From Pseudomonas sp. MPC6 (lineage in GTDB: Bacteria; Pseudomonadota; Gammaproteobacteria; Pseudomonadales; Pseudomonadaceae): DNA of 64,000 nt. The translations under genes and the position numbers were made by a program. Every line of letters starts with the position of its first letter. Within the stretch, counting starts at the first letter, position 1. The notes below the pieces were generated by a model. The model ran no database searches. It was given only the letters and a program-made list of their open reading frames with translations, and was not told the origin of the DNA. The stretch is from positions 6,041,001 through 6,105,000 of the forward strand of contig NZ_CP034783.1 of assembly GCF_006094435.1 (NCBI RefSeq), read 5' to 3'. Shown piece after piece: positions 41,464 to 58,177 of this stretch.

Positions 41464-42035
41464 TTTTTATTCTCATTCACCATCGGCACACTTCGCGCAT
41501 TCAAGCTCGCCAGCATTTCACTGGACCACTCGGAACGTAGTCGTGTACCCGGCGTTTCCTGGATAAGGGCCTGGGTTTTGGCAAAAAGGATCGCGGCCTC
41601 ATCGGTCAATAAATCCAGCGACCACCAGGTCGGCTGGCTAACATGCCAAGGCGTTGGGCAATAGAGTTCCAGCCGGTTGCCTTCTGGATCGGCAACATAA
41701 AAGCTCCATGCGTTGCCATGATCCTTCTGTTCAATAATCGTCACGTCAGCGGCGTGCATTTCCCGCGCAAGCAAGACCAACTGCTCCAGGCTGTCGATGC
41801 GGAACGACACCTGGTTAAAGGCCGACAACGCTGTATTTCGACCACTGATGAGCGCGATCTGATGGTGCTCATCGGCGTCTATCGTCAGGTAAACCACCTG
41901 AGCACCGGATGAAGCGATTCCGTGGTCGGAGATCAACATGCCGAACCAACGTTGATAAAAAGGCACGATCAGGTCTAGTCGGTAACAGTAGATACCCACA
42001 TGAGTCAGGCGGGGCCGTGTATTCCATTGGCTCAC
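41460..42035 (-). CDS. VOC-family single-domain protein A (possible extradiol dioxygenase)
   Basis: 191 aa, one VOC module pair. The three metal ligands of type I extradiol dioxygenases are in place: H12 (THVGIYCY), H58 (DEHHQIAL) and E123 (EGNRLELYCPTPW). Half the length of BphC-type enzymes, so a small class I ring-cleavage enzyme or an isomerase/epimerase are both possible. Translationally coupled (ATGA) to the pseudo-hydrolase downstream. Related to the VOC gene at 55636 (shared DEHHQI, QKDHGN and PTWW motifs). Confidence 0.82.
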   Translation of the reverse strand: MSQWNTRPRLTHVGIYCYRLDLIVPFYQRWFGMLISDHGIASSGAQVVYLTIDADEHHQIALISGRNTALSAFNQVSFRIDSLEQLVLLAREMHAADVTIIEQKDHGNAWSFYVADPEGNRLELYCPTPWHVSQPTWWSLDLLTDEAAILFAKTQALIQETPGTRLRSEWSSEMLASLNARSVPMVNENKK

Positions 42036-42103: not shown

Positions 42104-42964
42104 TCAGGCCAGCAAGAATTCAATACTGATCTTATTGAACGCCTCAGGCTGTTCGAATTGTGCCCAGTGATCACAGCCCTGCATTTCCACCAAGGTGACG
42201 TTAGGTGCGGTCTCTGCAATAGCGTATGCATTGCGCAGGAACATATTCGGCGCTTCGACTGCGGCGATGCTCAGAATGGGCAATTGCAGAGCTCGCCACT
42301 GTTCAATGGACAGATCCTGGCCACCGAGGCAGAAGGCCAGCAGATGAGGCATGGCGGCCTGCATACGGGGGTCTTGGTAGATGTCCAGACGAATACCGAT
42401 CAGGTCGTCGATCAAGTCGTCCGGCTTGAGCATCAACCCACCCATGGCGGCACGCACGGTTTCCCACGTTGGACTGCTAGCGGCCACGCTGCGGCGCTTA
42501 CGTACGCCTTCAGCCACACGGCGCTCTTCTTCGGCATCAACAATTATTCCGGCCGGAGCGACCATGACGAGTTTCTCAATGAGCTCCGGATATGTTTGTG
42601 CAACGGCTGCACCCACCCAAGACCCCAACGACACCCCCACAATGGAGGCACGGCCGATGCCTTTGGCCTGCATAAAACCTTCTACATGTGCGGCGTAGTG
42701 TTCGATCAGGTAATCATGGTCAGGCTTGTCAGTGGCCCCGCAGCCCAACATATCAATCCCAAACACATGGAAATGCTCGGCATAGGCTTGATAGTTGGCG
42801 CAAAAATTTTCCAGGCTGCCGGCAGTGCCATGCAGCAGAATCAATACCGGAGCACCTGCCTTACCTGCTTCCAGATAACGGGTGCCGACCCCATTGACAT
42901 CAACCCAATCCAGACGATGAGGGGTTCGAAACAGGTATTTCCAAACGCTTTTATAATTATTCAT
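42104..42964 (-). CDS. MhpC-like alpha/beta-hydrolase (meta-cleavage product type)
   Basis: 286 aa from the ATG at 42964 ([20 protein letters not shown]). Nucleophile elbow GVSLG and catalytic His in GCDHWAQFEQ are intact. The acid residue is not obvious; AAVEAPN offers a Glu where MhpC has Asp. Probably a C-C bond hydrolase acting on a ring-cleavage product. First gene of the leftward operon, behind a GTGCAC palindrome and a TTGCTT/TACTGT promoter. Confidence 0.88.
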   Translation of the reverse strand: MNNYKSVWKYLFRTPHRLDWVDVNGVGTRYLEAGKAGAPVLILLHGTAGSLENFCANYQAYAEHFHVFGIDMLGCGATDKPDHDYLIEHYAAHVEGFMQAKGIGRASIVGVSLGSWVGAAVAQTYPELIEKLVMVAPAGIIVDAEEERRVAEGVRKRRSVAASSPTWETVRAAMGGLMLKPDDLIDDLIGIRLDIYQDPRMQAAMPHLLAFCLGGQDLSIEQWRALQLPILSIAAVEAPNMFLRNAYAIAETAPNVTLVEMQGCDHWAQFEQPEAFNKISIEFLLA

Positions 42965-43054
42965 TCTGCACCTTGAGAGGAGCGGGCTAACCATTTTCTT
43001 GGAGTGGAAACGGCCTCGTTAGATCGAGACAAGTACCACTGAAACCAGGCTTCA

Positions 43055-43084
43055 ACAGTAGCCAATCGCGGTTTGCAGAAGCAA
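43055..43084 (-). promoter_or_regulatory. Promoter of the leftward catabolic operon
   Basis: On the minus strand TTGCTT (43084-43079), an 18-nt spacer and TACTGT (43060-43055). The -35 begins 25 nt from the centre of the palindrome at 43102-43116, the same geometry as at three other sites in the cluster. Confidence 0.55.
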
Positions 43085-43101: not shown

Positions 43102-43116
43102 GTGCACTAAGTGCAC
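43102..43116. promoter_or_regulatory. IclR-type operator copy 1
   Basis: GTGCACTAAGTGCAC, a perfect GTGCAC/GTGCAC palindrome between the IclR gene and the hydrolase operon. The predicted position is about -61 relative to transcription, typical of an activator site. Confidence 0.75.
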
Positions 43117-43124
43117 ACAGGGTC

Positions 43125-43955
43125 TTAGGGAGCCAAGATCAAAGCCGACGGGTCACCCGCCTCAAACTGCCTCCAGCGCGTTTCGATCTGGTCAACGGTT
43201 TCACGCATCATGGGTAAATAGCGCTTTGCTGCCTCCTGAATAGGCATGGCTTTGGCGATGTAGACCAGACCGAGACAGCCCAAGAGATGTTCCTGGTTGT
43301 GAATGGGCAGAGCGATAGCCGCAATACGATTTTCTACCCGCCAGTGTGCGTAGTTTTCCCCGTATCCCGCCTTTCGCGTGTGATCCATCAACCGGTTGAT
43401 ATAGCTGCGGTCTCTGGCCAACGCGCCCTCCTCATCGTCGCGCGCGGCCAAGAGTTTCAGAATATTTTCGCGTTCTTCATCCGGACAAAAGGCCAGATAA
43501 GCCCGACCCACGGAGGTATGAAGCATTGGCAGTCGACGCCCGACCATCGCACTGTGAAACGACAGTCGACTAAATTTATGAGTGGTTTCGCGTATCAGCA
43601 TGGCGTCACCGTCCAGGGTGCATAAGTCAGTAGGCCAGAGCACCTTCTGCAAAAGATTACCCAGCAGCGGCGCCGCCAACGCCGAGATCCACTGCTCATC
43701 ACGAAAACCTTCGCTCAGCTCACGCACCCTCAATGTCAGCTGGTAAAGACTACTGTCTGAGCTGTTGCGCTGTATGTAGCCCTCTTGCTGAAGGGTTTCC
43801 AGCAATCGGCGCACAGTCGTGCGGTGCAAACCACTCTGCTGTGACAGTTGATTAATGCTCAATTCACCGCCGCTGTGGCTCAGCGTATTGATTAACGCCA
43901 GTCCACGGATAAGCCCGCGTACCGCCTTGTATTCCGTTTCTTTTTCTTGGGTCAT
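43125..43955 (-). CDS. IclR-family regulator of the aromatic cluster (MhpR-like)
   Basis: 276 aa. N-terminal winged helix (LALINTLSHSGGELSINQLSQQSGLHRTTVRRLLETLQ) and a C-terminal GAF-like effector domain (RLPMLHTSVGRAYLAFCPDEER, IAALPIHNQEHLLGCLGLVYI region). It lies between the two divergent catabolic operons, like MhpR in E. coli, and the GTGCAC palindromes flank it on both sides. Most likely an activator responding to a hydroxyphenylpropionate-type effector and controlling at least four promoters. Confidence 0.88.
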   Translation of the reverse strand: MTQEKETEYKAVRGLIRGLALINTLSHSGGELSINQLSQQSGLHRTTVRRLLETLQQEGYIQRNSSDSSLYQLTLRVRELSEGFRDEQWISALAAPLLGNLLQKVLWPTDLCTLDGDAMLIRETTHKFSRLSFHSAMVGRRLPMLHTSVGRAYLAFCPDEERENILKLLAARDDEEGALARDRSYINRLMDHTRKAGYGENYAHWRVENRIAAIALPIHNQEHLLGCLGLVYIAKAMPIQEAAKRYLPMMRETVDQIETRWRQFEAGDPSALILAP

Positions 43956-43978
43956 GGAATTTACGGCCTCATGCTGAT

Positions 43979-43993
43979 GTGCACTCAGTGCAC
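43979..43993. promoter_or_regulatory. IclR-type operator copy 2
   Basis: GTGCACTCAGTGCAC upstream of both the IclR gene and mhpA. Its centre is 25 nt before the mhpA -35 element. My recollection is that the E. coli MhpR operator has a similar GTGCAC core; this needs checking. Confidence 0.75.
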
Positions 43994-44010
43994 ACGAAAT
44001 AGCTTTCCCA

Positions 44011-44040
44011 TTGCTGGCAGTTTTTTCTTATTCCTATACT
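44011..44040 (+). promoter_or_regulatory. mhpA operon promoter
   Basis: TTGCTG, an 18-nt spacer and TATACT, followed about 165 nt later by the mhpA ATG. The -35 is weak and the -10 good, as expected for an activator-dependent promoter. Confidence 0.55.
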
Positions 44041-44135
44041 CGATCACACAAAAAAACAACGGCAATCGTTAATTGACGCGGTGTTTTATTTAAAACGCGC
44101 AGCACTTGCAGCTATGGGGTTAACACCTGAATCAG

Positions 44136-44150
44136 GTGCAAGGAGTGCAC
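44136..44150. promoter_or_regulatory. Imperfect operator-like sequence in the mhpA leader
   Basis: GTGCAAGGAGTGCAC matches the cluster palindrome in its outer GTGCA/TGCAC parts but not in the centre. It lies downstream of the predicted start site, so it would be an auxiliary site if real. Confidence 0.35.
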
Positions 44151-44205
44151 AAGCTAGCGGCCTAAATCCCGGCGGAGCTTAATTTCAAGATGGCGGAGAC
44201 CACAC

Positions 44206-45879
44206 ATGACAACAACACCCAACGAAACTACCGCTCACGCGCAAACCATCGACTACCAAGCCGATGTCGTTGTGATAGGGGCTGGCCCCGTTGGCTTGGC
44301 TATCAGCAATTACCTTGGTCAAATGGGTGTTGAAGTCCTGGTGATCGAAAAGCTCGACAGCTTGATCGACTACCCGCGCGCCATTGGTATCGACGATGAG
44401 TCGTTGCGTACCATCCAGGCGTTCGGCCTGGTCGATCAGGTGCTGCCGCACACTACGCCTTGGCACGCGATGCGCTTCCTGACCCCTAAAGGCCGTTGCT
44501 TCGCCGACATACAACCGATGACAGAGGAGTTCGGCTGGTCGCGCCGCAACGCCTTCATTCAGCCGCAAGTAGACGGCGTCATGTTCAAAGGCCTGCAGCG
44601 CTTTGCCAACGTGCGCACACTGTTCTCCCGCGACCTGATCGATTTCAGCCAAACCGGTGATGGCGTCAGCCTGCGCATGAAAAAAGCCGACGGTAGCGAA
44701 GAAACCGTGCGGGCCGGTTACATGGTCGCTTGCGACGGCGGTAACAGCTACGTACGCCGCACCCTTAACATCAGCTTTGACGGTAAAACGGCGCCGAATC
44801 AGTGGATTGTCGTCGACATTGCCAACGACCCTCTGAGCACGCCCCATATCTACCTGTGCTGCGACCCAGTGCGTCCTTATGTCTCCGCTGCCCTGCCTCA
44901 TGGTGTGCGCCGTTTCGAATTCATGGTCATGCCCGGCGAAACGGAAGCTGAGCTGAGCAAACCGGAGAACATGCGCAAGCTGTTGGCCAAGGTGCTGCCC
45001 AACCCCGATCGCATAGAACTGATCCGCAGCCGCGTCTATACCCACAACGCACGCCTGGCCGGTCAATTCCGTCAGGGGCGGGTGCTGCTGGCTGGCGATG
45101 CCGCGCACATCATGCCGGTATGGCAAGGCCAGGGTTACAACAGCGGGATGCGGGATGCCAGCAACCTGGCCTGGAAGCTCGCGTTGGTCGTTAAAGGACT
45201 GGCAGGGCCAAGCTTGTTGGACACCTATGAAGTGGAACGGCGTGATCACGCAAAAGCGATGATCGATCTTTCTGTACTCGCCGGGCACGTCCTGGCGCCA
45301 CCCAAGCGCTGGCAGGGCACCTTGCGTGACGGCGTGTCGTGGCTGCTCAATTATTTGCCGCCGGTTAAGCGCTACTTCCTGGAAATGCGTTTCAAACCGA
45401 TGCCCAAATACACCAAAGGCGTGGTGGTCAGTGACGAGATCAAAAACTCGCCAGTGGGCCGCATGTTTATTCAGCCAATGGTTGAACTCGAAGACGGCCG
45501 CAAGGTACTGCTTGATGAAGTGATTGGCGCGAACTTCGCAGTGCTGTCTTGGGGCAGCAATCCAAAGTGGGGACTGACGCAAGAGCAAATCGCGGCCTAC
45601 GAGCAACTGGGTACCCGTTTTATCCAGGTTCTGCCTGCCGTCCAACTGAAAGCACAGCGCCCTCGGGTGGAAGGGGTGATCAGTGTCGGCGACTTCAACA
45701 ACAGTCTGAAAACATGGTTCGCACAGTACCCCGCCTCGGTGGTGGTGCTACGTCCTGATCGTTTCATCGCCAGCCTCTGTATCCCGCAGACATTGGGCAA
45801 GGCCAGCACGCTAGTACTGAGCAAGTTAAGCGCCACCCCGGTGGCCGTTAAGAGCCCAGCACAAAGCGAGGTGGCCTGA
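44206..45879 (+). CDS. mhpA: 3-(3-hydroxyphenyl)propionate/3-hydroxycinnamate hydroxylase
   Basis: 557 aa class A flavoprotein monooxygenase. FAD motif GAGPVG (25-30), the DG motif [13 protein letters not shown] and the second FAD motif [21 protein letters not shown] are all present. Converts 3-(3-hydroxyphenyl)propionate to the 2,3-dihydroxy compound with NADH and O2. First gene of mhpABCDFE, 1 nt before mhpB. Confidence 0.94.
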
Positions 45880-45880
45880 C

Positions 45881-46822
45881 ATGACTGTGCTGCTGGAGTG
45901 TTTGTCGCACACCCCGCTGGTCGGTCATGTCGACCCGAACCAGGATGTGCTGGATGAGGTCGACGTGGTAGTGAAGGCTGCGCGTGAACGTATCGCCACC
46001 TTCGATCCAGAGCTGGTCATTCTGTTCTCGCCCGATCATTACAATGGCTTTTTCTATGACGTGATGCCGTCGTTTTGCATTGGTATGGGTGCCCACGCCA
46101 TCGGCGATTTCGGCACCCTGGCCGGCAATCTCAACGTGCCCCAAGTGCTGGCCGAGGACTGCGCCAGCTTTGTGCTCGAGTCCGGGGTTGATGCCGCGGT
46201 GTCTTACGATATGCAGCTCGACCACGGCGCGGCACAACCGCTGGAGTTTTTCTTTGGTGCGCTAAATAAATGCCCGGTGATCCCGGTGTTTATCAACTCG
46301 GTCGCCGTTCCGCTACCTAGCTTCCAGCGCGCACGCCTGCTCGGCCAGGCGATTGGCCAGTGGGCGAGCACTCTGAACCAACGGGTATTGATCATCGGTT
46401 CGGGCGGGCTGTCGCATCAACCTCCGGTGCCTGAGTTGGCCACCGCCAATGCCCATATGGCCGATCGCCTGAAGGGCAGCGGCCGTGTCCTTCCGGAGGA
46501 TGAACGTGAAGCGCGCACCCAGCGGGTGATTCAAGCGGCACGGCGTTTTGTCGAAGATCAGAACTCGCTGCACCCGCTCAACCCCGAGTGGGATCAGCAG
46601 TTCCTTGACACGTTGAGCCGCGGCGAACTGGCCGAGCTCGATAGTGTGAGTAACGCTCACCTCTCGGCCCTGGCCGGCAAGTCCACTCACGAAGTCAAAA
46701 CCTGGGTCGCCGCGTTCTCCGCCCTTCAAGCCTTTGGCCCTTACGAGGCCAGCAACCGTTATTACCGCGAAATCCCGGAGTGGATCGCCGGCTTTGGCGC
46801 CCTGAGCGCCCGCCTGCGTTAG
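45881..46822 (+). CDS. mhpB: 3-carboxyethylcatechol 2,3-dioxygenase
   Basis: 313 aa LigB-type (class III) extradiol dioxygenase. Family motifs [36 protein letters not shown] and [15 protein letters not shown] supply the active-site histidines. Opens the ring of 2,3-dihydroxyphenylpropionate. Tightly spaced after mhpA. Confidence 0.95.
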
Positions 46823-46861
46823 GACCCACCGGTTTACGCATCCCATTTAGAGGACACTTTG

Positions 46862-47719
46862 ATGAGCCGCTTCAACGAAGAAAACACCAGCCATTTCGTT
46901 AACATTGAAGACGCAGGCCGCACGCTAAACATCCATTACAACGATATCGGCGACGGTAACAACGTGGTGGTCATGCTGCACGGCTCTGGCCCCGGCGCCA
47001 CCGGCTGGGCCAATTTCAACCGCAACATCGATCCACTGATCGACGCCGGTTTTCGCGTATTGCTGATCAACTGCCCGGGCTGGGGCAAGACCGACACGGT
47101 CGTCTGCGCCGAGTCGCGCTCCGAGCTCAACGGCCGCGTGGTCAAGGCCGTGATCGACCAACTGGGCATCAACAAGATCTCCCTGCTCGGCAACTCCATG
47201 GGCGGCCACAGCGCCGTGGCCTTTGCCTTGGCCAACCCGGACAACGTCGACAAGCTGGTCCTGATGGGCGGCGGCACCGGCGGCGTGAGCTCGTTCGTGC
47301 CGATGCCGACCGAAGGCATCAAGCTGATCGGCGCGCTGTACCGAGAACCGACGCTGGAAAACCTCAAGCGCATGATGAACGTGTTCGTCTACGACGCCAG
47401 CGACCTGACCGAAGACCTGATGCAAGCGCGCCTGACCAACCTGCTGGCTCGCCCGGACCATCTGGAAAACTTCGTCAAGAGCCTCCAGGCGCATCCCAAG
47501 CAGTTCCCCGACCAGAGCGCGCGCCTGGATGAAATCAACGCCGAAACCCTGATCGTTTGGGGCCGTAACGACCGCTTTGTACCGGTCGATACAGGCTATC
47601 GCTTGAACGCCGGCATCCTCAATTCGCAACTGCACGTGTTCAACAAATGTGGTCACTGGGCGCAGTGGGAGCACGCCGAGAAGTTCAACCGCCTGGTGCT
47701 CGACTTCCTGACCCACTAA
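46862..47719 (+). CDS. mhpC: 2-hydroxy-6-oxonona-2,4-dienedioate hydrolase
   Basis: 285 aa from the ATG at 46862 (a TTG one codon upstream is also in frame). Triad visible: Ser in [12 protein letters not shown], Asp in [11 protein letters not shown], His in [15 protein letters not shown] hydrolase releasing succinate and 2-hydroxypenta-2,4-dienoate. Its intact triad contrasts with the degenerate paralog at 40600. Confidence 0.95.
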
Positions 47720-47769
47720 TCCATAAGTTGTCGGCCTGACAGGCTTCTCGTCAGGCCTCCGAGGTGAAC

Positions 47770-48564
47770 ATGAGCGTATCGAAAAAAACCATAGAATCAC
47801 TCGCCGCGGCCCTTCGCAGCGCCGAAGCCAGCGGCTTGGGCATTGCTCCGCTGCGTGAAGAGATTGGTATTGAGTCGGCGGATGCCGCTTACGCCATTCA
47901 GCGCTTGAACGTGGCGGTGGCACAAGCCGAGGGACGCCGCATCGTCGGCCGAAAGATCGGCCTGACCAACAAGAAAGTCCAGGCTCAACTGGGTGTGGAT
48001 CAGCCGGACTTCGGCACCTTGTTTGCCGACATGTGCTACGGCGACGGCGATACAGTGCCCTTTGGCCGCGTGATGCAGCCCAAGATCGAAGCGGAAATTG
48101 CTTTGGTTTTGAATAAGGACTTGCCGTCTAGCGACACCACCTTCCTTGACGTACTGGCCGCCACCGGCTGGGTGCTGCCGTCGTTGGAAATTGTCGGTTC
48201 GCGCGTTAAAGACTGGAACATCCGCTTCGTCGACACCGTGGCTGACAACGCCTCCAGCGGCTGCTTTGTGCTCGGTGGCCCGGCGCGGCGACTCGAAGGC
48301 ATCGACCTGCGCAATGCACGCATGAGCATGACCCGTAATGGCGAAGTGGTTTCTGAAGGCACCGGTGCCGAATGCCTGGGCCATCCGTTGAACGCTGCCG
48401 CCTGGTTGGCCTCGACCATGGCACGCCTGGGCACGCCATTGAAGGCCGGAGACGTGATTTTGACCGGCGCCTTGGGCCCGATGGTACCGGTTGCGGCGGG
48501 CGATCATTTTGAAGCCTTGATCAGCGGGATTGGCCAAGTCGCCGTGCAGTTCAACGCTGAGTAA
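47770..48564 (+). CDS. mhpD: 2-keto-4-pentenoate hydratase
   Basis: 264 aa from the ATG at 47770, with a GAGGTG site upstream. Hydratase motifs [37 protein letters not shown] and [14 protein letters not shown]. Makes 4-hydroxy-2-oxovalerate from 2-hydroxypentadienoate. Fourth gene of the mhp operon. Confidence 0.94.
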
Positions 48565-48596
48565 TCAGCATCACGCGAGAACAAGAGAACAACACC

Positions 48597-49532
48597 ATGA
48601 AAAAACTCAAAGTCGCGATCATCGGTCCGGGCAACATCGGTACCGATCTAATGATCAAAGTGATGCGCAACGCCAAGTACCTGGAAATGGGTGCCATGGT
48701 CGGTATCGACCCCAAGTCCGACGGTCTGGCCCGCGCTCAGCGCCTGGGCGTGGCAACCACTGCTGAAGGCGTACAAGGCCTGATCGATTTGCCCGAATTT
48801 GCTGACATCGACTTCGTCTTCGATGCCACCAGCGCTGGCGCACACGTGCAAAACGACGCCTTGCTGCGCGCCGCCAAGCCCGGTATCCGCTTGATCGACC
48901 TGACGCCTGCGGCCATCGGCCCCTATTGCGTGCCAGTGGTTAACCTGGAACAGAACCTGAATCAGTTGAACGTCAACATGGTCACCTGCGGTGGCCAGGC
49001 AACCATCCCGATGGTCGCTGCAGTATCCCGCGTGGCCAAGGTTCACTACGCCGAAATCATCGCCTCGATCGCCTCCAAATCGGCCGGCCCTGGCACGCGT
49101 GCCAACATCGACGAATTCACCGAAACCACCTCCCAGGCGATTGAAGCCGTGGGTGGCGCCGCCAAGGGTAAGGCGATCATCGTCATGAACCCGGCCGAAC
49201 CGCCGCTGATGATGCGCGACACTGTGTTCGTGCTGTCTGAAGCCGCCGATCAGGCGAAGGTTGAAGCCAGCATCGAAGAAATGGCCGCCGCGGTTAAGGC
49301 TTACGTGCCGGGCTATCGCCTCAAGCAAAAAGTGCAGTTTGACGTCATCCCTGAAGACGCGCCGCTGAACATTCCGGGCCACGGCAAGTTCTCGGGCTTG
49401 AAAACCTCGATCTTTCTGGAAGTTGAAGGCGCCGCCCACTACCTGCCTGCTTACGCGGGCAACCTGGACATCATGACCTCTGCCGCGCTGGCTACCGCCG
49501 AGCGTATGGCTATCTCGATGATCAACGGCTGA
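48597..49532 (+). CDS. mhpF: Acetaldehyde dehydrogenase (acylating)
   Basis: 311 aa. NAD-binding [19 protein letters not shown] at the N-terminus and the catalytic Cys in [18 protein letters not shown]. Converts acetaldehyde, channelled from the partner aldolase, to acetyl-CoA. Directly precedes mhpE (10-nt gap), with which it forms the usual complex. Confidence 0.96.
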
Positions 49533-49542
49533 GAACACGACC

Positions 49543-50565
49543 ATGATTTTTGATCCAAGCAAAAAAATCTACATTTCCGACGTCACCTTGCGCGACGGGA
49601 GCCATGCAGTTCGCCACCAGTATTCGATCCAGAACGTGCAGGACATCGCCCGCGCCCTCGACCAGGCCAACGTGGACTCTATTGAAGTCACTCACGGTGA
49701 TGGTCTGCAAGGTTCAAGCTTCAACTACGGCTTTGGCGCCCACACCGATCTGGAATGGATCGAAGCGGCGGCCGATGTGATTGAAAATGCCAAGATCACC
49801 GTATTGCTGCTGCCCGGTATCGGAACGGTTCATGACCTCAAGGCCGCTTACGACGCTGGCGCTCGCTCCGTGCGCGTGGCCACCCACTGCACCGAAGCCG
49901 ACGTGTCCAGACAGCACATCGAATACGCGCGCTCGCTGGGCATGGACACCGTCGGTTTCCTGATGATGAGTCATATGATCCCGGCCGAACAGCTAGCCGC
50001 CCAAGGCAAGTTGATGGAAAGCTACGGTGCCGAGTGCATCTACATGGCCGACTCCGGTGGCGCTATGAGCATGAACGACATCCGTGACCGCATGCGGGCC
50101 TTCAAGGCCATGCTGAACGCTGAAACACAGACCGGCATGCACGCCCACCACAACTTGAGCCTGGGCGTGGCCAACTCCATTGTCGCGGTCGAGGAAGGCT
50201 GTGACCGTGTCGATGCCAGCCTGGCCGGTATGGGTGCAGGTGCTGGCAACGCGCCCCTGGAAGTATTCATCGCTGCCGCGGAGCGCATGGGCTGGAACCA
50301 CGGCACCGACCTGTATCGCCTGATGGATGCTGCCGACGATCTGGTACGTCCGCTGCAAGACCGCCCGGTAAGGGTTGACCGTGAAACCCTCGGTCTCGGT
50401 TACGCAGGCGTGTACTCCAGCTTCTTGCGTCACGCCGAAATGGCTGCGGCCAAGTACGGCCTCAAGACCCTGGATATCCTGGTTGAACTGGGACGCCGCC
50501 GCATGGTGGGTGGCCAGGAAGACATGATCGTCGACGTGGCGCTGGATCTGCTCAAACAACGTTAA
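49543..50565 (+). CDS. mhpE: 4-hydroxy-2-oxovalerate aldolase
   Basis: 340 aa of the DmpG/HMGL-like family. TIM-barrel start [14 protein letters not shown] (catalytic Arg-Asp) and metal-binding [13 protein letters not shown] are present. Splits 4-hydroxy-2-oxovalerate into pyruvate and acetaldehyde, closing the mhp pathway. Confidence 0.96.
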
Positions 50566-50785
50566 TCCCCTGGCTTACTCCGTAGCGGGCCAGCTGCAAA
50601 AGGGCCAGGTCTTCAGTGCCGGGGCAAGTTGGCTTTGGCGCCAGGAAATGTCATCGCCTCGCAGGAGATTTTTTCCTGGTCCCTCGGCGCAGCCACCCTT
50701 CTACTGATTAACCCTTCGCCCCCCCGTTACGTCGAGCCTGTCACGACTTTTTCTATCTGCAGGGATACCTGCGCGCTGGAGTCTG

Positions 50786-52237
50786 ATGATGCAATTGATA
50801 GACCCTTCACTGTTCCGCCAGCAAGCCTATATCGACGGCGCATGGGCTGATGCCGACAACGACCAGACCCTCAACGTCAATAACCCGGCGACCGGTGAGA
50901 TACTTGGTAGCGTGCCGAAAATGGGTCGTGCCGAAACCGCTCGCGCCATTGAAGCGGCCAACCGCGCCCTGCCGTCCTGGCGTGCCCTGACCGCCAAAGA
51001 GCGTGGTGCCAAATTGCGCCGCTGGTACGAGCTTATGCTCGAACACAAAGACGATCTGGGCCGTCTGATGACCCTGGAGCAAGGCAAGCCGCTGCATGAG
51101 TCAGTGGGCGAAGTGGTGTATGCCGCCTCCTTCTTCGAGTGGTTCGCCGAAGAAGCCAAGCGCGTCTACGGTGACACCATTCCAGGGCACCAGGTCGACA
51201 AGCGTCTGCTGGTTATCAAGCAGCCTATCGGCGTGACAGCGGCCATAACACCGTGGAACTTCCCTTGCGCGATGATTACCCGCAAAGCCGGTCCAGCGCT
51301 GGCCGCCGGTTGCACCATGGTGCTCAAACCTGCCTCGCAAACCCCCTACTCGGCCCTGGCACTGGCCGAATTGGCTGAACGGGCTGGTATCCCCGCAGGC
51401 GTGTTCAACGTGGTCACCGGCAGCGCTGGCGAAGTTGGCGGCGAACTGACCGGCAACCCGATCGTGCGCAAGCTCAGCTTCACCGGCTCCACCGAAATCG
51501 GCCGCCAGCTGATGGCTGAGTGCGCCAAGGATATTAAAAAGGTGTCGCTTGAACTGGGCGGCAACGCGCCCTTTATCGTGTTCGACGACGCCGATCTGGA
51601 CGCTGCCGTTGAGGGCGCGCTGATCAGCAAATTCCGCAACAACGGCCAGACCTGCGTATGCGCCAACCGCTTGTATGTGCAGGACGGCGTATACGAACTT
51701 TTCGTAACCAAGCTAGCCGTGGCGGTGGCCAAACTGCAGATCGGTAACGGCCTGCACAGCGGCACCAGCACCGGCCCGCTGATCGACGCAAAGGCCGTGG
51801 CTAAAGTGCAGGAGCACATTGATGACGCAGTCGCCAAGGGTGCGCGTGTGCTACTGGGTGGTAAACCTCACGCCCTGGGTGGGAGCTTCTTCGAGCCGAC
51901 CATCCTGGTCGACGTACCGCATCACGCCTTGGTGTCAAAGGATGAAACCTTTGGCCCACTGGCCCCGGTATTCCGCTTCAAGGACGAAGCTGAAGTTATC
52001 GAACGCGCCAATGACACCGAGTTCGGCCTGGCTTCGTATTTCTACTCCCGTGACATTAGCCGCGTGTTCCGGGTGGGTGAAGCCCTGGAATACGGCATGG
52101 TCGGTGTCAACACGGGGCTGATCTCAAACGAAGTGGCGCCGTTCGGCGGCATCAAAGCGTCGGGTCTGGGCCGTGAAGGCTCCAAGTACGGTATCGAGGA
52201 CTACCTGGAAATCAAATACATGTGCCTTTCGATATAA
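50786..52237 (+). CDS. NAD(P)-dependent succinate-semialdehyde dehydrogenase-like ALDH
   Basis: 483 aa aldehyde dehydrogenase. Catalytic Glu in VSLELGGNAPFIVFDDAD, catalytic Cys in NNGQTCVCANR, and TPWNFPCAMITRKAGPALAAGC all fit GabD-type enzymes. Best explained as oxidising succinate semialdehyde made by the HpaI-type aldolase at 38900. The 220-nt gap after mhpE suggests either read-through or a separate promoter; I see no GTGCAC palindrome in it. Confidence 0.88.
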   Translation: MMQLIDPSLFRQQAYIDGAWADADNDQTLNVNNPATGEILGSVPKMGRAETARAIEAANRALPSWRALTAKERGAKLRRWYELMLEHKDDLGRLMTLEQGKPLHESVGEVVYAASFFEWFAEEAKRVYGDTIPGHQVDKRLLVIKQPIGVTAAITPWNFPCAMITRKAGPALAAGCTMVLKPASQTPYSALALAELAERAGIPAGVFNVVTGSAGEVGGELTGNPIVRKLSFTGSTEIGRQLMAECAKDIKKVSLELGGNAPFIVFDDADLDAAVEGALISKFRNNGQTCVCANRLYVQDGVYELFVTKLAVAVAKLQIGNGLHSGTSTGPLIDAKAVAKVQEHIDDAVAKGARVLLGGKPHALGGSFFEPTILVDVPHHALVSKDETFGPLAPVFRFKDEAEVIERANDTEFGLASYFYSRDISRVFRVGEALEYGMVGVNTGLISNEVAPFGGIKASGLGREGSKYGIEDYLEIKYMCLSI

Positions 52238-52250
52238 GCGCAAAGGCAAC

Positions 52251-52279
52251 AAAAAACCCGCACTGGTTGCGGGTTTTTT
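52251..52279. terminator. Terminator after the ALDH gene
   Basis: AAAAAACCCGC-actggtt-GCGGGTTTTTT, symmetric with A/T runs on both sides. It ends both the rightward ALDH unit and the leftward MFS unit. Confidence 0.9.
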
Positions 52280-52299
52280 GATGCGCGCTGTTTGAACGC

Positions 52300-53718
52300 T
52301 TAACGCGCTAAGGTAGGTTGCGGGTCTGCTTGTTGAAATTTGGCTTCAGTTGCGGCCGCTTCATCATATTCCCGGGCTACCTTGTCCATCTCCGGACGCA
52401 GGTAGCGCAGGGAGAAACCCAACACCAAGATCGCCAGAACTACACTGGTAGCCGAAACACTGACAAGTGAATAGCCAAGCATGGCCTGATCCTTGAACAC
52501 GTGCTCGGTAATGATCGCTACCAATGTCGGAGAAATGGTCGGCGCCACAGTACCCACTACAAGAATGAACATACCCATGACTCGCCCACGCAAGTGGCTA
52601 GGCGCCATTAGTTGAATGGTTGCCGAAACGTAGAACACCGAGTTCAGCAGGATGATATCCAGTACCGCATAAGCAACAACAAACACATTAAAGTCATTGG
52701 TGGTAAAAGCAACGCCCATGGCAGGCAGCGAAAGGACGAGGATAAAGGTGTAGAAACGGATATGCGCGTCCTTGTAACCGCGCTTGACCATCCAGTCAAT
52801 GAACAGTCCTTTGAGGATCATTGAGAAAGCCCCGACGGCGTATAGCATGCTCAAAGCTGGAGCATACTCCTTGGGAGACAACCCAAAATGGCGGGTAATA
52901 TATGTCGGGCCCCAAGCCAGAGATGCCATTGCCGCCAGGGTAGTGCAGGAAAAACCCAGAAGCAGCAAACTGTACAAGCCCTTTCGTTGCGTTACATAGT
53001 CTTTAAAGGCGATCTCGCCTACTTTGCACGCGACGTTTTTTACTCGCAGGCTGACATCCGAGGCACCTTTACGCAGCGGTTCGGAAAAACTGAATACCAG
53101 CAACGCCAGCAGTACACCCGGCGCCCCTAGCAGAATGAGCGCCGAACGCCACGCATTCATTTCACCAAGCAATGGAAAATTTATGCTGCCGACGCTGGCG
53201 GTATAAGCGATGACCCAGCCACCAACACCGAACGCAAAGGCATTGCCCAATTTGGGCCCCATGCCGAAAATCGACATGGCCGTGGTCATGCGGTGGCGCG
53301 GCACACGGTCGGCAATCATCGAATACGCCGCAGGCATCAATGATGCCTCTGCAGCACCGACAGCTACCCGGCTGGCAAACAGGGCCGGAAAGGATTTGGA
53401 CAGACCTGCACACACGGTAGCTATCGACCAGATAGCGAAGCCGCCGAATAGCACCTTGCGTCTAGAAAAACGGTCACAGGCCCAGCCCAGCGGGTAAGCA
53501 AATAAACCGTGGGCGACGGCAAACGCTGGTCCGATAATCAGGCTTATTTGCACATCGGTAAAACCCATGTCCTGTTGGATCGGCACCACCAGCATGTTCA
53601 GCACCAGTCGATCAAGTATCGACATGACGTAAAACATCAGCAATACAAGCACCATCCACCAAGGCTCGATCCTTTCCCACCAGTGCGTGGAAAATCGATT
53701 GGTATTTATCATGTTCAT
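52300..53718 (-). CDS. Spinster-like MFS transporter, paralog 1
   Basis: 472 aa, about 12 membrane helices. N-terminal IEPWWMVLVLLMFYVMSILD, then PLGWACDRFSRRKV (motif A) and FGMGPKLGNAFAFGVGGWVI. Likely uptake of an aromatic acid. Clearly paralogous to the carrier at 58255. Divergent from the PrpD-family gene. Confidence 0.9.
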   Translation of the reverse strand: MNMINTNRFSTHWWERIEPWWMVLVLLMFYVMSILDRLVLNMLVVPIQQDMGFTDVQISLIIGPAFAVAHGLFAYPLGWACDRFSRRKVLFGGFAIWSIATVCAGLSKSFPALFASRVAVGAAEASLMPAAYSMIADRVPRHRMTTAMSIFGMGPKLGNAFAFGVGGWVIAYTASVGSINFPLLGEMNAWRSALILLGAPGVLLALLVFSFSEPLRKGASDVSLRVKNVACKVGEIAFKDYVTQRKGLYSLLLLGFSCTTLAAMASLAWGPTYITRHFGLSPKEYAPALSMLYAVGAFSMILKGLFIDWMVKRGYKDAHIRFYTFILVLSLPAMGVAFTTNDFNVFVVAYAVLDIILLNSVFYVSATIQLMAPSHLRGRVMGMFILVVGTVAPTISPTLVAIITEHVFKDQAMLGYSLVSVSATSVVLAILVLGFSLRYLRPEMDKVAREYDEAAATEAKFQQADPQPTLAR

Positions 53719-53827
53719 CAGCAGTCACCATTTTTTTATTTATTAAGTGGTGTTGAAGGAAGGCCCTCATTTGGCTTGCTGATTTAAGCGGCGTTTTTCA
53801 AGAAACGATAGGACCAACTGCCATCTC

Positions 53828-53842
53828 GTGCACTGAGTGCTC
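53828..53842. promoter_or_regulatory. IclR-type operator copy 3
   Basis: GTGCACTGAGTGCTC, one mismatch from the palindrome (CTC for CAC). Its centre is 25 nt from TTGCGA at 53860. Confidence 0.65.
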
Positions 53843-53859
53843 CTCCATGCATTACTGCC

Positions 53860-53889
53860 TTGCGACGAAGCGCGGACAATCGCTAATTT
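53860..53889 (+). promoter_or_regulatory. Promoter of the PrpD-family gene
   Basis: TTGCGA, an 18-nt spacer and TAATTT, placed 36 nt before the ATG at 53925. Same operator-to-promoter spacing as the other cluster promoters. Confidence 0.5.
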
Positions 53890-53924
53890 AGGTCGTCCTT
53901 AAAAAAACAACACAGAGGCCTCCC

Positions 53925-55298
53925 ATGCTTGTTCGCCGAATCGCTCGTCACATCCTCGATACCCGCTATGAAAACCTCCCGCACGGAGTGATCCATGCCG
54001 CTAAGTTGCGGCTGATTGATGCACTGAGCTGTACCGTGGGAGGGCATGTATCACCCAGCAATGCCATTTATTTGAATTTGTTCAAAAGTTGGGGAGGTGC
54101 GCCGCAGGCCAGTGTTCTGGGTTTCGGGGAGAAACTTCCGTTGCCCCAAGCAGCACTAATCAACTGCCTGAGTACCCGCTCATTTGATTTCGAGGTAACA
54201 GGCCCGGAAGCCGAAGGTATCAACAAAGGCAAGATGGTAGGTCACGTCTGCAGCACCACGGACCCTACCGCGCTGAGTGTGGCTGAGTTCATGAACAGCA
54301 GTGGCCAGGAGCTTTTGGTCGCAGTGGTATTAGGCGGGGATGTGGGCGCACGCTTGGCCGTTTCAGAAGAGTTCAACTTCGATAAATGCTTTGAGGTTTG
54401 CGGAACCGCCAACGCTATTGGCGCCTTGGCAGTTGTTGCCCGATTGATGAAACTGGACGAAGACCAGATCGTCAATGCCTTCGGCATTTTGCTGCACATG
54501 ATGTCAGGCTCGTACCAGTCCCTTTGGGATGGCGCCGACACCTTTAAACTACCCGGCGCCCTGGCTGCATACAACGCGGTGACCGCGGCGCAGTTGAGCC
54601 TGGGAAGTTTCGGCGGAGTAAAAGATGCGCTCACCAGCAAACTGGGGTATTACAACCTCTATTCCTATAATGCGTCGCCGGAGAATTTCGCTGCGGATCT
54701 GGGCACTACCTTCTACGTTCAAGGTATGCACAAGCTGCACCCATCCTGCTACGGCAATCACAACCCAATCGAATGCGCGCTGGAACTTGTAAACGCCCAT
54801 CACTTCACGGCAGATGATGTGGAAACGATCACCGTGGATGTGCCGCCTCACCGGGTCAATCATTTCCTCAACCAGACCATGAGCGCTGAGGATGGCCAGG
54901 CCCGCGCACTGTTCAGCATCCCTTACGGCATTGCCAATGCACTGGTGAATAAAGAAGTGCGAATCGAGCATTACACCTCGGCCCACATTCATGACCCAAT
55001 AGTCATGGCCTTGACCGAGCGCGTGGTTCTGCAGGCGGCCGAAGACGTCAACATCAACCAGTTGATGCGCCTGGCCATTCACCTTAAAGATGGCCGAGTC
55101 TTGAAATCTGAACGTGACAAACTGCCCCTCGGCTGGGCGGCCAACCCGGTCTCCGACCAGGACATCGTGAACAAATTTTGGCGCAACATTCATTTCGCGA
55201 AGAATGTCAGTGACGAGCGCGCCCAGCGCGCCCTAGAGGCAATTCAGAATCTCGAACAACTGGACAGCGTCGTGGCAATTACAGACAACCTCCGATAA
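53925..55298 (+). CDS. MmgE/PrpD-family protein
   Basis: 457 aa, the full family length. Motifs KLRLIDALSCTVGGH, DFEVTGPEAEGINKGKMVGHV and LHPSCYGNHNPIECALEL. The family includes 2-methylcitrate dehydratase, cis-aconitate decarboxylase and iminodisuccinate epimerase, so a dehydratase/decarboxylase acting on a carboxylic intermediate is likely, but the exact reaction is not clear. A GTGCAC operator puts it in the mhp regulon. Confidence 0.85.
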   Translation: MLVRRIARHILDTRYENLPHGVIHAAKLRLIDALSCTVGGHVSPSNAIYLNLFKSWGGAPQASVLGFGEKLPLPQAALINCLSTRSFDFEVTGPEAEGINKGKMVGHVCSTTDPTALSVAEFMNSSGQELLVAVVLGGDVGARLAVSEEFNFDKCFEVCGTANAIGALAVVARLMKLDEDQIVNAFGILLHMMSGSYQSLWDGADTFKLPGALAAYNAVTAAQLSLGSFGGVKDALTSKLGYYNLYSYNASPENFAADLGTTFYVQGMHKLHPSCYGNHNPIECALELVNAHHFTADDVETITVDVPPHRVNHFLNQTMSAEDGQARALFSIPYGIANALVNKEVRIEHYTSAHIHDPIVMALTERVVLQAAEDVNINQLMRLAIHLKDGRVLKSERDKLPLGWAANPVSDQDIVNKFWRNIHFAKNVSDERAQRALEAIQNLEQLDSVVAITDNLR

Positions 55299-55590
55299 TC
55301 ACTGCTCACTCCGTTGCCAAAGCAGGTCCACCCAGGAGGGCCTGTTCGGCATCGTGACACGCTTATGGCGTGTTCCTAGAGCGCGGACAAGCGCTTTTAA
55401 ATACCACTCCAGTGAAAACAGATGTCTTCTCATCGCGACGATCGGCAGGGGGCCAACCTCTATGAGAGCTGATTCTGCTCGACTTGGAAAACCAATCAGG
55501 TAATCGATAATCTGCGAGTTCCAGGCATGCCTTCGACTGTTAAAGACCTGACTTCAATACAGGACTGAACTGTTAAGGGCCAGAGCACGA
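55299..55590. other. Spacer with no recognised feature
   Basis: About 290 nt between the PrpD-family gene and the terminator of the leftward VOC gene. No ORF with family support and no operator copy seen. Confidence 0.45.
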
Positions 55591-55594
55591 CAAA

Positions 55595-55620
55595 GCCCCA
55601 CCCCGTTACCGGGATGGGGC
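55595..55620 (-). terminator. Terminator of VOC gene B
   Basis: On the minus strand GCCCCATCCCG-gtaa-CGGGGTGGGGC followed by TTTG. Strong stem directly after the VOC stop codon. Confidence 0.75.
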
Positions 55621-55635
55621 GTGGGTGCAACAGCT

Positions 55636-56190
55636 TTAGAATGCTTCGAGATTAGCTTTCACACCCGCGCGAATTCGCGCCTGCCATTCCTCACGACTGC
55701 AGAAGCCCGGCTGCGTTTTGGCCTTCTCCTCAGTGCGGGTATAGATTTGCTCTACCGATTCGGTGACCAGGTCGACATCCCACCAGGTAGGCTGCTGCAC
55801 GTACCAAGGCGACGGGGTGTAGCATTCAATACGGTTACCCTCTGGGTCCGAGATGTAAATACTCCAGGTGTTGCCGTGATCCTTTTGCTGCAAAATCGGA
55901 ACCCCAGCTTTATGGAACTCAACCGCCATCTGCTTGAGCTCCTCAAGGCTGTCGTAGACAAAGGAAATCTGCTGCATACCGGGATGACCTTCACGACGCA
56001 GATTGGCAAACGCAATCTGGTGATGCTCATCAGGATCACCGGTCATGAATACCACGCGGGCACCATCCGCACGTCCAGTACCGGTGTCAGATATTACGAA
56101 TCCAAACCAACGAGTGTAAAACTTACCCAGCTCATCTGGTTGGAATGCGGGAACGCCAATGTGGCGGAATCGGCCTTGAGGAAGCGGCAT
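55636..56190 (-). CDS. VOC-family single-domain protein B (possible extradiol dioxygenase)
   Basis: 184 aa from the ATG at 56190 (AAGAGG upstream). Ligand residues H10 (RHIGVP), H57 (DEHHQIAF) and E122 (EGNRIECYTPSPW) are in place. Paralog of the VOC gene at 41460, with the same QKDHGN and PTWW motifs. Possibly a one-domain extradiol dioxygenase for a different substituted catechol. A lone gene flanked by oppositely oriented neighbours. Confidence 0.82.
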   Translation of the reverse strand: MPLPQGRFRHIGVPAFQPDELGKFYTRWFGFVISDTGTGRADGARVVFMTGDPDEHHQIAFANLRREGHPGMQQISFVYDSLEELKQMAVEFHKAGVPILQQKDHGNTWSIYISDPEGNRIECYTPSPWYVQQPTWWDVDLVTESVEQIYTRTEEKAKTQPGFCSREEWQARIRAGVKANLEAF

Positions 56191-56621
56191 GGTATTAAAC
56201 CTCTTGTTAAGGTGGATAGGTGCAGTCATCAGTATCCGAGACACCGATATTCAGTCTTTGCCCAAACGAGCAATAATGGTGCACCCAGCGCTCATATTTG
56301 AGCTTTTGCACGGTGCACCTGATTGAAAAAAGCCCTTAGTTTGCATGCAGCCGTTACCCAGGCATTCACTCGCTATTGGCTCAGCACAAAGCCGCATTCC
56401 AAATGAGATCACCGCCTGAAATCGGCCTTTGTAAGTCCCTCTACAGCCGACAATCGACTTCTCATTCTCGCTCCGACAAACGCCGACCAAGCCCCCCGCA
56501 TCCCATCGGGGTTTTCCCGCTGACCAGCGCTCTTCAAAAAATGGAAGCTCGTGGGAGCATCGATTGCCTGAGTGTATTGATATCAGTTCATGGCGATAAT
56601 GAAGCAAAATTTCGAAACCGC
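56191..56621. other. Spacer between VOC gene B and the porin operator
   Basis: About 430 nt with no supported gene. It holds a damaged operator-like TTTGCACGGTGCAC at about 56306, two bases short of the cluster consensus. Confidence 0.4.
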
Positions 56622-56636
56622 GTGCACTTGGTGCAC
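56622..56636. promoter_or_regulatory. IclR-type operator copy 4
   Basis: GTGCACTTGGTGCAC, perfect palindrome, centre 25 nt from TTGCGC at 56654. Confidence 0.75.
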
Positions 56637-56653: not shown

Positions 56654-56682
56654 TTGCGCTTCTCTGGGGCGCTTTTGATACT
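56654..56682 (+). promoter_or_regulatory. Promoter of the OprD-porin gene
   Basis: TTGCGC, 17-nt spacer and GATACT, placed 82 nt before the porin ATG. Same layout as the other cluster promoters. Confidence 0.5.
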
Positions 56683-56764: not shown

Positions 56765-58177
56765 ATGTCCAGCACTAAGCCGTCGCTTGGAAGAGTATTG
56801 CTGTTCGCCTCCATGAACGCAGCACCTCTGCTTTGCGCCACAACGCAAGTGGTTGCCGCGCAGGGTTTTTTAGAAGACTCCAAAGCCACACTTCGTATGC
56901 GGAACCTTTATTACGATAATGACTTTCGCTCTGGACCGGGCGTGTCGCGCCTCACCGAGTGGGGACAGGGTTTCGCACTCAATGCACAATCGGGATTCAC
57001 CCAGGGAACCGTTGGTTTTGGCGTTGATTTATTAGCGTTTTATGGACTGAAACTTGATTCCGGTGGCAAGGTTGGTGATCCTAACTCCTCTCGTCAACCC
57101 GCACTCCTATTTCCCCGTGCATCCGATGAAAGTTCTGTCGACAATTTTTCCTGGGCTTATTTGAACCCAAAGATTCGCTTCTCGAAAACTCAGATAAGTT
57201 ATGGCGCTCATCTACCGCGCATGCCGATTGTCCAAGCCTCTACTGGCAGCATTGCCCCCCAGTTATTTGAGGGCACAGTGGTTACGTCCAACGAAATCGA
57301 AGGCCTGACCCTGATGAGTGGGCTGTACGAGCACTCTAAAGGCCGCGCGTCTAGCGATGGCATTTCCATGTCCATTAGCGCCTCGTCACCTGCACGAGGC
57401 CCTGGTAATCCTTATAACCGAGCGGTCTACGGCGCGAATATGCCAGGCACACCACAAGACAGTAATCACTTCTGGTTCTTCGGCAGCGAGTACGCCCTGA
57501 CCCCCGGCCTGACCCTGCGTTACTACTACGGCGAGCTGGAAGAGTTCTACCAGCAGCACATGATTGGGGCGTTGACACAAATGCCTCTCGGTGCAGGCAA
57601 ACTGTCTGGCGACTTCCGGTATTACGACAGCTCTGGCAATGGCAAAAACAGCAGCTTTGCCGGACGCAAAGAGGGCTACCTCGCAAGCGGCTACTATGGC
57701 AATGGCGTCACTGTGGGTGAAGTCGATAATCGGCTGAGCAGCGCATTATTCAGCTACAAGTACGGTGCCCACACCTTCGGTTTCGGCTACCAATATACCG
57801 AAGGCAAAAGCGACTTCGTATGGCTGAACCAAGGTGATGGCAGCATTGCACCCATCACAAGTGATATTCAAGTTAACAAGTTCACTCGGGCTGGCGAGCG
57901 CACCACGCAAGTGCGTTACGGTTACGACTTTGTTGCTCTTGGCATACCTGGGCTGGAAGCAAACTGGATCTATCTGAAAGGGCGAAATGCCCGCTCAGTT
58001 CAAGGGCCGAAAGAGGAAAATGTGCAAATCGTTTCGCTGAATTACGCAATTCAAAGCGGAGCGCTCAAGGGACTCGCCTTTCGCTTCGATAAAGGCATTC
58101 TCCACAGTGATGTGCCTGGTGTACGCGATATGACCGAAACGCGCCTGATCACCGAATACAGCATTCCACTGTTCTAG
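56765..58177 (+). CDS. OprD-family outer-membrane porin
   Basis: 470 aa from the ATG at 56765 (MSSTKPSLGRVLLF). A signal peptide ends near VVAAQG. The OprD start GFLEDSKATLRMRNLYYDNDF is followed by alternating beta strands and a C-terminal Phe (EYSIPLF) for BAM recognition. Specific channel for small carboxylates or aromatics (Opd/OpdK class). Operator copy 4 places it in the mhp regulon; the MFS gene follows 77 nt downstream. Confidence 0.92.
   Translation: MSSTKPSLGRVLLFASMNAAPLLCATTQVVAAQGFLEDSKATLRMRNLYYDNDFRSGPGVSRLTEWGQGFALNAQSGFTQGTVGFGVDLLAFYGLKLDSGGKVGDPNSSRQPALLFPRASDESSVDNFSWAYLNPKIRFSKTQISYGAHLPRMPIVQASTGSIAPQLFEGTVVTSNEIEGLTLMSGLYEHSKGRASSDGISMSISASSPARGPGNPYNRAVYGANMPGTPQDSNHFWFFGSEYALTPGLTLRYYYGELEEFYQQHMIGALTQMPLGAGKLSGDFRYYDSSGNGKNSSFAGRKEGYLASGYYGNGVTVGEVDNRLSSALFSYKYGAHTFGFGYQYTEGKSDFVWLNQGDGSIAPITSDIQVNKFTRAGERTTQVRYGYDFVALGIPGLEANWIYLKGRNARSVQGPKEENVQIVSLNYAIQSGALKGLAFRFDKGILHSDVPGVRDMTETRLITEYSIPLF

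Follow-up and report, generated by a model that had tools for sequence, protein, structure and literature searches.

The 64,000-nt stretch of Pseudomonas sp. MPC6 analysed here (contig NZ_CP034783.1, positions 6,041,001 to 6,105,000, called the window below) carries the mhpABCDFE genes and, divergent from them, a gene for an IclR-family regulator, MhpR. Four palindromes of the form GTGCAC-N3-GTGCAC were found in it. In all likelihood they are MhpR operators, at which MhpR in its effector-bound form would activate four transcription units by recruiting RNA polymerase from a fixed face. As far as sequence comparison can tell, MhpR very probably controls all four, because the sites have the same spacing as MhpR-mhpA promoters and were kept in two other Pseudomonas species. 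The proposal of an earlier sequence-only reading, that the IclR regulator encoded at 43125 governs one regulon extending beyond mhp, thus gains support from an MhpR-like protein, an MhpR operator and four sites retained in two species.

The palindromes, their spacing and the regulator

The sequence-only reading had placed copies of one palindrome at 43102, 43979, 53828 and 56622. The coordinates are right, and three of the copies match GTGCACTNNGTGCAC exactly (43102-43116, 43979-43993 and 56622-56636), but the one at 53828-53842 (GTGCACTGAGTGCTC) has a single mismatch to it. Read toward the gene served, each of the four is followed by 17 nt and then by TTGC, which places the palindrome centre 25 nt from the first base of TTGC, exactly as had been claimed. 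The -35 hexamers are TTGCTT (hydrolase operon), TTGCTG (mhpA), TTGCGA (prpD-like gene) and TTGCGC (oprD). The -10-like hexamers had been put 17-18 nt further on; this holds for mhpA and oprD, where good hexamers are present (TATACT and GATACT, respectively), but by best match the range over the four promoters is 16-18 nt.

Within the four downstream regions, TTGC at +17 is the sole 4-mer in common at one offset (0-40). When the whole pattern (operator, 17 nt, TTGC) was sought in the 7.22-Mb genome of the strain at up to 3 mismatches, 28 matches were obtained, compared with 13 in the reversed control: three with no mismatch, one with a single mismatch, none with two and 24 with three, two of the last being sites 3 and 4 read in reverse. 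The four sites of the window are the best four and the only matches at up to 2 mismatches; the many unrelated genome hits against which the earlier reading had warned are absent at this threshold. That the common spacing is a coincidence is scarcely credible. The genome does contain other GTGCAC-rich palindromes that lack the spacing, but no other match to the full pattern at up to 2 mismatches, any 4-mer at a common offset was found in just 2 of 200,000 random window quadruples, which bears out the earlier judgement that the spacing is hard to get by chance, and relatives have the same spacing, so that conservation already speaks against it.

The regulator encoded at 43125 contains both the IclR helix-turn-helix (PF09339) and the IclR effector domain (PF01614). 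It scores 346 bits (cut-off 269) against the NCBIfam model PRK09834.1-3, which is named only DNA-binding transcriptional regulator and which we take to be MhpR. Its gene (43125-43955, minus strand) is divergent from mhpA (start at 44206, plus strand). In the recognition segment HRTTVRRLLETL, 11 of 12 positions are invariant among 52 aligned sequences, the Escherichia coli locus L119 included, and the remaining position is conserved in at least 90%. Other matches to MhpR in the same genome are at most 29% identical, save one 32-residue piece at 53%; judged by these identities, the 43125 gene is the sole close MhpR relative in the genome. The E. coli MhpR operator is given as GGTGCACCTGGTGCACA (Torres et al. 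2003, as quoted in PMC8222616, Table 1). Both of its GTGCAC half-sites are kept in sites 1, 2 and 4, and site 3 has one mismatch. For E. coli, PMC11237407 describes stimulation of MhpR binding to its operator by phenylpropionates, and activation of MhpR by 3-hydroxyphenylpropionate or phenylpropionate.

A separate open frame of the window (60741-61703, minus strand) combines a flavin reductase domain with a C-terminal winged-helix-like stretch, which weakly matches TrmB and also weakly matches MhpR.

Operator 2 may also control mhpR itself, because it lies only 23 nt upstream of the mhpR start. This position favours a reading in which MhpR occupies all four sites but represses at some of them, for example at the hydrolase operon or at mhpR. 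We consider such repression improbable: all four operators lie upstream of a predicted -35 element at the spacing of mhpA promoters, sites of repressors more often overlap the promoter, and the promoters score poorly in a generic scan. A fifth candidate operator at 44136-44150 in the mhpA leader (one mismatch, minus strand) was rejected, being without a TTG at +17 toward mhpA. It has no counterpart in loci L049 and L050 of two related pseudomonads, as their mhpA leaders contain no palindrome at up to 1 mismatch besides operator 2.

The spacing in related genomes and in other genera

The comparison was based on 80 loci around mhpB relatives, the best 80 of 331. A match to mhpA is present in 53 of them, and 52 of these have the operator (up to 2 mismatches) with a TTG at +17 in every case; the 53rd locus is cut by a contig end, leaving 140 nt examined. 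The 52 loci include closely related species and belong to Pseudomonas, Oceanisphaera, Zobellella, Vibrio, Marinobacter, Nitrincola, Escherichia, Klebsiella and Serratia. The loci without an mhpA match serve as a negative control, and 25 of the 27 are without a palindrome at up to 1 mismatch; the other two, L121 and L127 (Marinobacter), have the palindrome before mhpB with TTG at +17.

A further 20 promoters were picked by hand from palindromes (up to 1 mismatch) upstream of genes, and all 20 have TTG at +17 before several unrelated gene families. Four are those of the window, six come from its two relatives and ten from elsewhere: a DcaP-like porin (Oceanisphaera), an MFS transporter (Zobellella), TRAP binding proteins (four loci; L096, L095 and L108 were scanned and L099 was assigned by a layout identical to that of L096), mhpB (two) and amidohydrolases (two Pseudomonas genomes). 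Before the DcaP-like porin gene, in L058 at 16230-16253, two GTGCAC-N3-GTGCAC palindromes overlap with a 9-nt shift.

Over these 72 promoters a T-rich stretch precedes TTG, with T at +11, +12, +13 and +14 in 68, 68, 47 and 62 promoters, and the distance from -35 to -10 by best match is 15, 16, 17 and 18 nt in 1, 10, 34 and 27. Since the distance from operator to -35 is fixed while that to -10 varies slightly, the promoters suggest that MhpR touches RNA polymerase near -35, with the alpha subunit possibly placed on the intervening T-rich stretch. Taken together without such picking, the 80 loci contain 73 palindromes with no more than 1 mismatch, and 65 of these have TTG at +17 on one or both strands. 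The arrangement of operator, 17 nt and TTG is, on these alignments, the general plan of MhpR-mhpA promoters, E. coli included. Because the spacing is the usual MhpR architecture, it sets this genome apart less but is stronger evidence of MhpR control.

In 398 genomes of the genus, a set that overlaps with the named loci, the exact operator followed by 17 nt and TTG occurs 33 times in 29 genomes, and not once in the reversed control. Twenty-seven matches lie before mhpA (own genome included), two before an amidohydrolase gene beside an MhpR-like gene (genomes G347 and G172), two are the hydrolase and oprD sites of the window and two (L133, L150) have no homologue of the window nearby. With the two window sites left out, 29 of 31 exact matches are before mhpA or beside an MhpR-like gene, so the rule gives few false matches. 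Genome G172 (Pseudomonas; L175 and L176) carries two MhpR-like genes, one beside mhpA and one beside the amidohydrolase gene, and both come with an operator followed by TTG at +17.

Nearly the gene order of the window was found in L049 (Pseudomonas sp. TTU2014-080ASC) and L050 (Pseudomonas sp. 5P_3.1_Bac2), in the order MFS, HpaI, HpaH, two hydrolases, mhpR, mhpABCDFE, succinate-semialdehyde dehydrogenase (SSADH), MFS, PrpD-family, VOC, OprD, MFS and LysR, with about 3 kb extra between the SSADH and MFS genes in L050. VOC matches left aside, the proteins are 68-94% identical to those of the window. In both loci the hydrolase, mhpA, PrpD-family and oprD genes are each preceded by an operator with TTG at +17, and the nucleotides between operator and TTG differ from those of the window while operator and TTG are kept. 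Operator 3 has a counterpart in the equivalent position of L171 and of L172, each with one mismatch. At up to 2 mismatches the genome of L049 (G398) yields the four cluster sites and two others at 2 mismatches (reversed control 1), and that of L050 (G399) three cluster sites, one reverse reading and two others at 2 mismatches (reversed control 0); the oprD site of G399 is too degenerate for the pattern at this threshold.

The extended cluster is rare in the genomes and plasmids sampled. The PrpD-family protein was matched at E 1e-100 in one of 398 genus genomes and hydrolase 1 at E 1e-80 in one of 293 order genomes, in both cases the strain's own. Among plasmids, 384 records match the PrpD-family protein, all below 60% identity, the ten listed at 27-30%. 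Both relatives come from the best 80 of 331 mhpB relatives, and more such species may exist.

Several observations weigh against MhpR control of all four units. In the window, the -10 elements of the hydrolase operon and of the prpD-like gene are weak, and not one of the four promoters is picked up by a generic sigma-70 scan, although the latter fits a set of activator-dependent promoters. Operator 3 is mismatched both here and in the two relatives, the oprD operator of L050 is degenerate (GTGCATAGGGTGCAC), and TTGA replaces TTGC at the oprD promoters of L050 and L049. Only two other species with a nearly full cluster were found, and VOC protein 1 was not seen in the leftward operon of either; many of the compared promoters come from related species and are not independent. 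The operator without the spacing is far less specific: when up to 1 mismatch is allowed, the own genome yields 37 strand-matches and the reversed control 16, and when up to 3 are allowed, the window yields 38, compared with a shuffle mean of 26.8; 4 of 100 shuffles reached 38. For a looser pattern, GTGCACYNRGTGCAC with 17 nt and TTGC, seven matches with no more than 2 mismatches were counted in the own genome (reversed control 0). Eight of the 73 palindromes in the 80 loci, three of them exact, are without TTG at +17 on either strand. At first sight the spacing control in the 398 genomes also speaks against the 17-nt distance as a unique signal, as TTG after 14, 15, 16, 17, 18, 19 and 20 nt was counted by eye 2, 7, 4, 33, 1, 52 and 0 times (reversed control of the series, about 8). 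By eye, 46 of the 52 matches at 19 nt are one recurring sequence, which is probably coding because its own-genome copy (C4:5439576-5439612, L001) is contained in two open frames (211 and 339 aa) that overlap each other.

The imperfect operator 3 and the two weak -10 elements would suit an arrangement in which only the mhpA site functions, the remaining three being relics or targets of a different IclR-type protein. We regard this as very unlikely: operator and TTG are kept in two species with proteins of 68-94% identity though the intervening nucleotides differ, and the genome has no second close MhpR relative.

Genes of the four units and the proposed pathway

The features of the four predicted units are listed in Table 1.

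Table 1. Predicted operators, promoter elements and genes of the proposed MhpR regulon in the window.
Feature	Position	Strand	Description
Operator 1 GTGCACTTAGTGCAC (read on -)	43102..43116	-	Leftward hydrolase operon; exact match; same place in L049 and L050
-35-like TTGCTT	43079..43084	-	17 nt past operator 1; weak -10 GCTACT (43057-43062) or TACTGT (43055-43060)
Operator 2 GTGCACTCAGTGCAC	43979..43993	+	mhpA; 23 nt upstream of mhpR start on opposite strand
mhpA promoter	44011..44040	+	TTGCTG, 18 nt, TATACT
Operator 3 GTGCACTGAGTGCTC	53828..53842	+	PrpD-family gene, perhaps divergent MFS gene too
prpD-like gene promoter	53860..53889	+	TTGCGA, weak -10 GCTAAT or TAATTT
Operator 4 GTGCACTTGGTGCAC	56622..56636	+	OprD porin; identical in L171, one mismatch in L172
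oprD promoter	56654..56682	+	TTGCGC, 17 nt, GATACT
mhpR	43125..43955	-	IclR-family regulator, 276 aa; Pfam HTH_IclR and IclR_C
Alpha/beta hydrolase 1	42104..42994	-	First in leftward operon; Abhydrolase_1; best solved relatives BphD/HsaD-type meta-cleavage-product hydrolases
VOC protein 1	41460..42035	-	Single-domain, extradiol-dioxygenase-like; PF00903 Glyoxalase/dioxygenase; partial TIGR03211 below cut-off
Alpha/beta hydrolase 2	40600..41463	-	Paralogue of hydrolase 1, 49% identical
hpaH-like	39749..40552	-	2-oxohept-4-ene-1,7-dioate hydratase; TIGR02312, 458.6 bits (cut-off 351.5)
hpaI-like	38900..39736	-	4-hydroxy-2-oxoheptanedioate aldolase; TIGR02311, 363.2 bits, just below cut-off 368.8
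MFS transporter	37424..38806	-	Probable end of leftward operon
mhpA, mhpB, mhpC, mhpD, mhpF, mhpE	44206..50565	+	Above an NCBIfam cut-off: A, B, D, F, E
SSADH	50786..52237	+	PRK11241.1, 978.5 bits (cut-off 828); probable end of mhp operon
MFS transporter	52300..53718	-	Divergent from PrpD-family gene
MmgE/PrpD-family protein	53925..55298	+	MmgE/PrpD superfamily domains; nearest solved relatives IDS-epimerase and IRG1-type decarboxylase
OprD-family porin	56765..58177	+	PF03573, 358.5 bits; nearest solved relative OprE
MFS transporter	58255..59622	+	77 nt past oprD, probably one operon with oprD

MhpR is proposed to bind each operator when an aromatic effector is present, and RNA polymerase would then be recruited from a fixed face given by the operator, the 17 nt with their T-rich stretch and TTG. 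Unit 1 would be the mhpABCDFE-SSADH ring-cleavage operon, with operator 2 probably regulating mhpR as well; no terminator-like match was listed within the 220-nt gap between mhpE and the SSADH gene. MhpC scores below every NCBIfam cut-off shown, its best match being BphD-type (364.4 bits, cut-off 462).

Unit 2, read leftward, would comprise the genes for both hydrolases and for VOC protein 1, which is extradiol-like, together with those for a hydratase of the HpaH type, an aldolase of the HpaI type and an MFS transporter. Hydrolase 1 reaches the cut-off of none of the 25 NCBIfam families shown. In all three species compared it has the Ser and the His but no Asp at the MhpC position, and in hydrolase 2 the nucleophile Ser is replaced by Ala (GVALG) and the catalytic His by Ile; hydrolase 2 is probably a conserved non-hydrolytic member.

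Unit 3 would consist of the MmgE/PrpD-family gene, perhaps together with the divergent MFS gene, for which operator 3 would perhaps act as a bidirectional promoter. On its reverse strand the four nucleotides at +17 are TTCC in L172 and TACC in L171, both followed by TAGTAT, and TATC in the window. The MmgE/PrpD-family protein fails the NCBIfam models of PrpD, 2-methylcitrate dehydratase (TIGR02330, 23.8 bits, cut-off 458; PRK09425.1, 31.4 bits, cut-off 575). Unit 4 would combine the porin gene oprD with the gene of an MFS transporter. Another single-domain VOC protein is encoded on the minus strand (55636-56244) in the interval that separates oprD from the PrpD-family gene, and it has a counterpart in L171 and L172; its H, H and E residues are conserved, presumably the extradiol-type motif.

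HpaH and HpaI would convert 2-oxohept-4-ene-1,7-dioate to pyruvate and succinate semialdehyde, and the semialdehyde made by HpaI would be oxidised by the SSADH whose gene probably closes the mhp operon. Such a flow would tie the leftward and mhp operons together and fits their joint control. Hydrolase 1 and the VOC proteins are candidate makers of the seven-carbon acid; a caveat is that the usual Asp is missing from hydrolase 1, and Ser and His from hydrolase 2. The OprD and MFS proteins would fit uptake, and the substrate of the regulon need not be 3-(3-hydroxyphenyl)propionate alone.

Known systems and the probable extended regulon

In E. coli, as in the window, an IclR-type regulator is divergent from mhpABCDFE and the operator has GTGCAC half-sites. 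The E. coli mhpA promoter also needs CRP. At the E. coli locus L119 the operator is likewise followed by 17 nt, TTGTAG, 16 nt and TATACT. The target described for E. coli MhpR in PMC11237407 is the mhp operon, whereas in the window a site also stands before the hydrolase operon, the PrpD-family gene and the porin gene. Pseudomonas putida W619 is another pseudomonad with mhpR and a full mhp operon (mhpRABCDFET); there the transporter gene mhpT is part of the operon, and PMC3056050, in the portion that treats this cluster, does not name members such as the hydrolase operon, the PrpD-family gene or the porin. The hcdABC genes for 7-hydroxycoumarin degradation in Pseudomonas mandelii similarly encode a flavin hydroxylase, an extradiol dioxygenase and a hydrolase acting on a dihydroxyphenylpropionate (PMC6222606); the terms IclR, regulator, porin and succinic semialdehyde do not occur in the main text of that paper, so it offers no regulon for comparison.

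The operator, the regulator and the promoter plan are already known in kind; new are the extension of the regulon and the strict spacing across genera. Literature searches, covering neither RegPrecise and other regulon databases nor supplements and most subscription papers, found no account of an extended MhpR regulon and no description of the extra breakdown branch.

Judging by the genes behind these sites, MhpR appears to recruit uptake systems (OprD, DcaP-like porin, MFS and TRAP) and extra enzymes in several genera. A wider proposal is put forward tentatively: the MhpR promoter (operator, 17 nt including the T-rich stretch, and TTG) could be a rigid module which bacteria have placed repeatedly before unrelated genes, making the regulon readable from the DNA in any genome, and here it might have recruited a branch of hydrolase 1, HpaH, HpaI and SSADH that would turn a seven-carbon dienedioate, derived from an aromatic substrate outside the standard mhp pathway, into pyruvate and succinate. 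The fixed distance from operator to -35, combined with 15-18 nt between -35 and -10, makes a clear prediction on how an IclR-type activator would contact RNA polymerase. A regulator normally tied to a single breakdown pathway of plant-derived aromatic acids thus appears to switch on at least four gene groups in Pseudomonas sp. MPC6.

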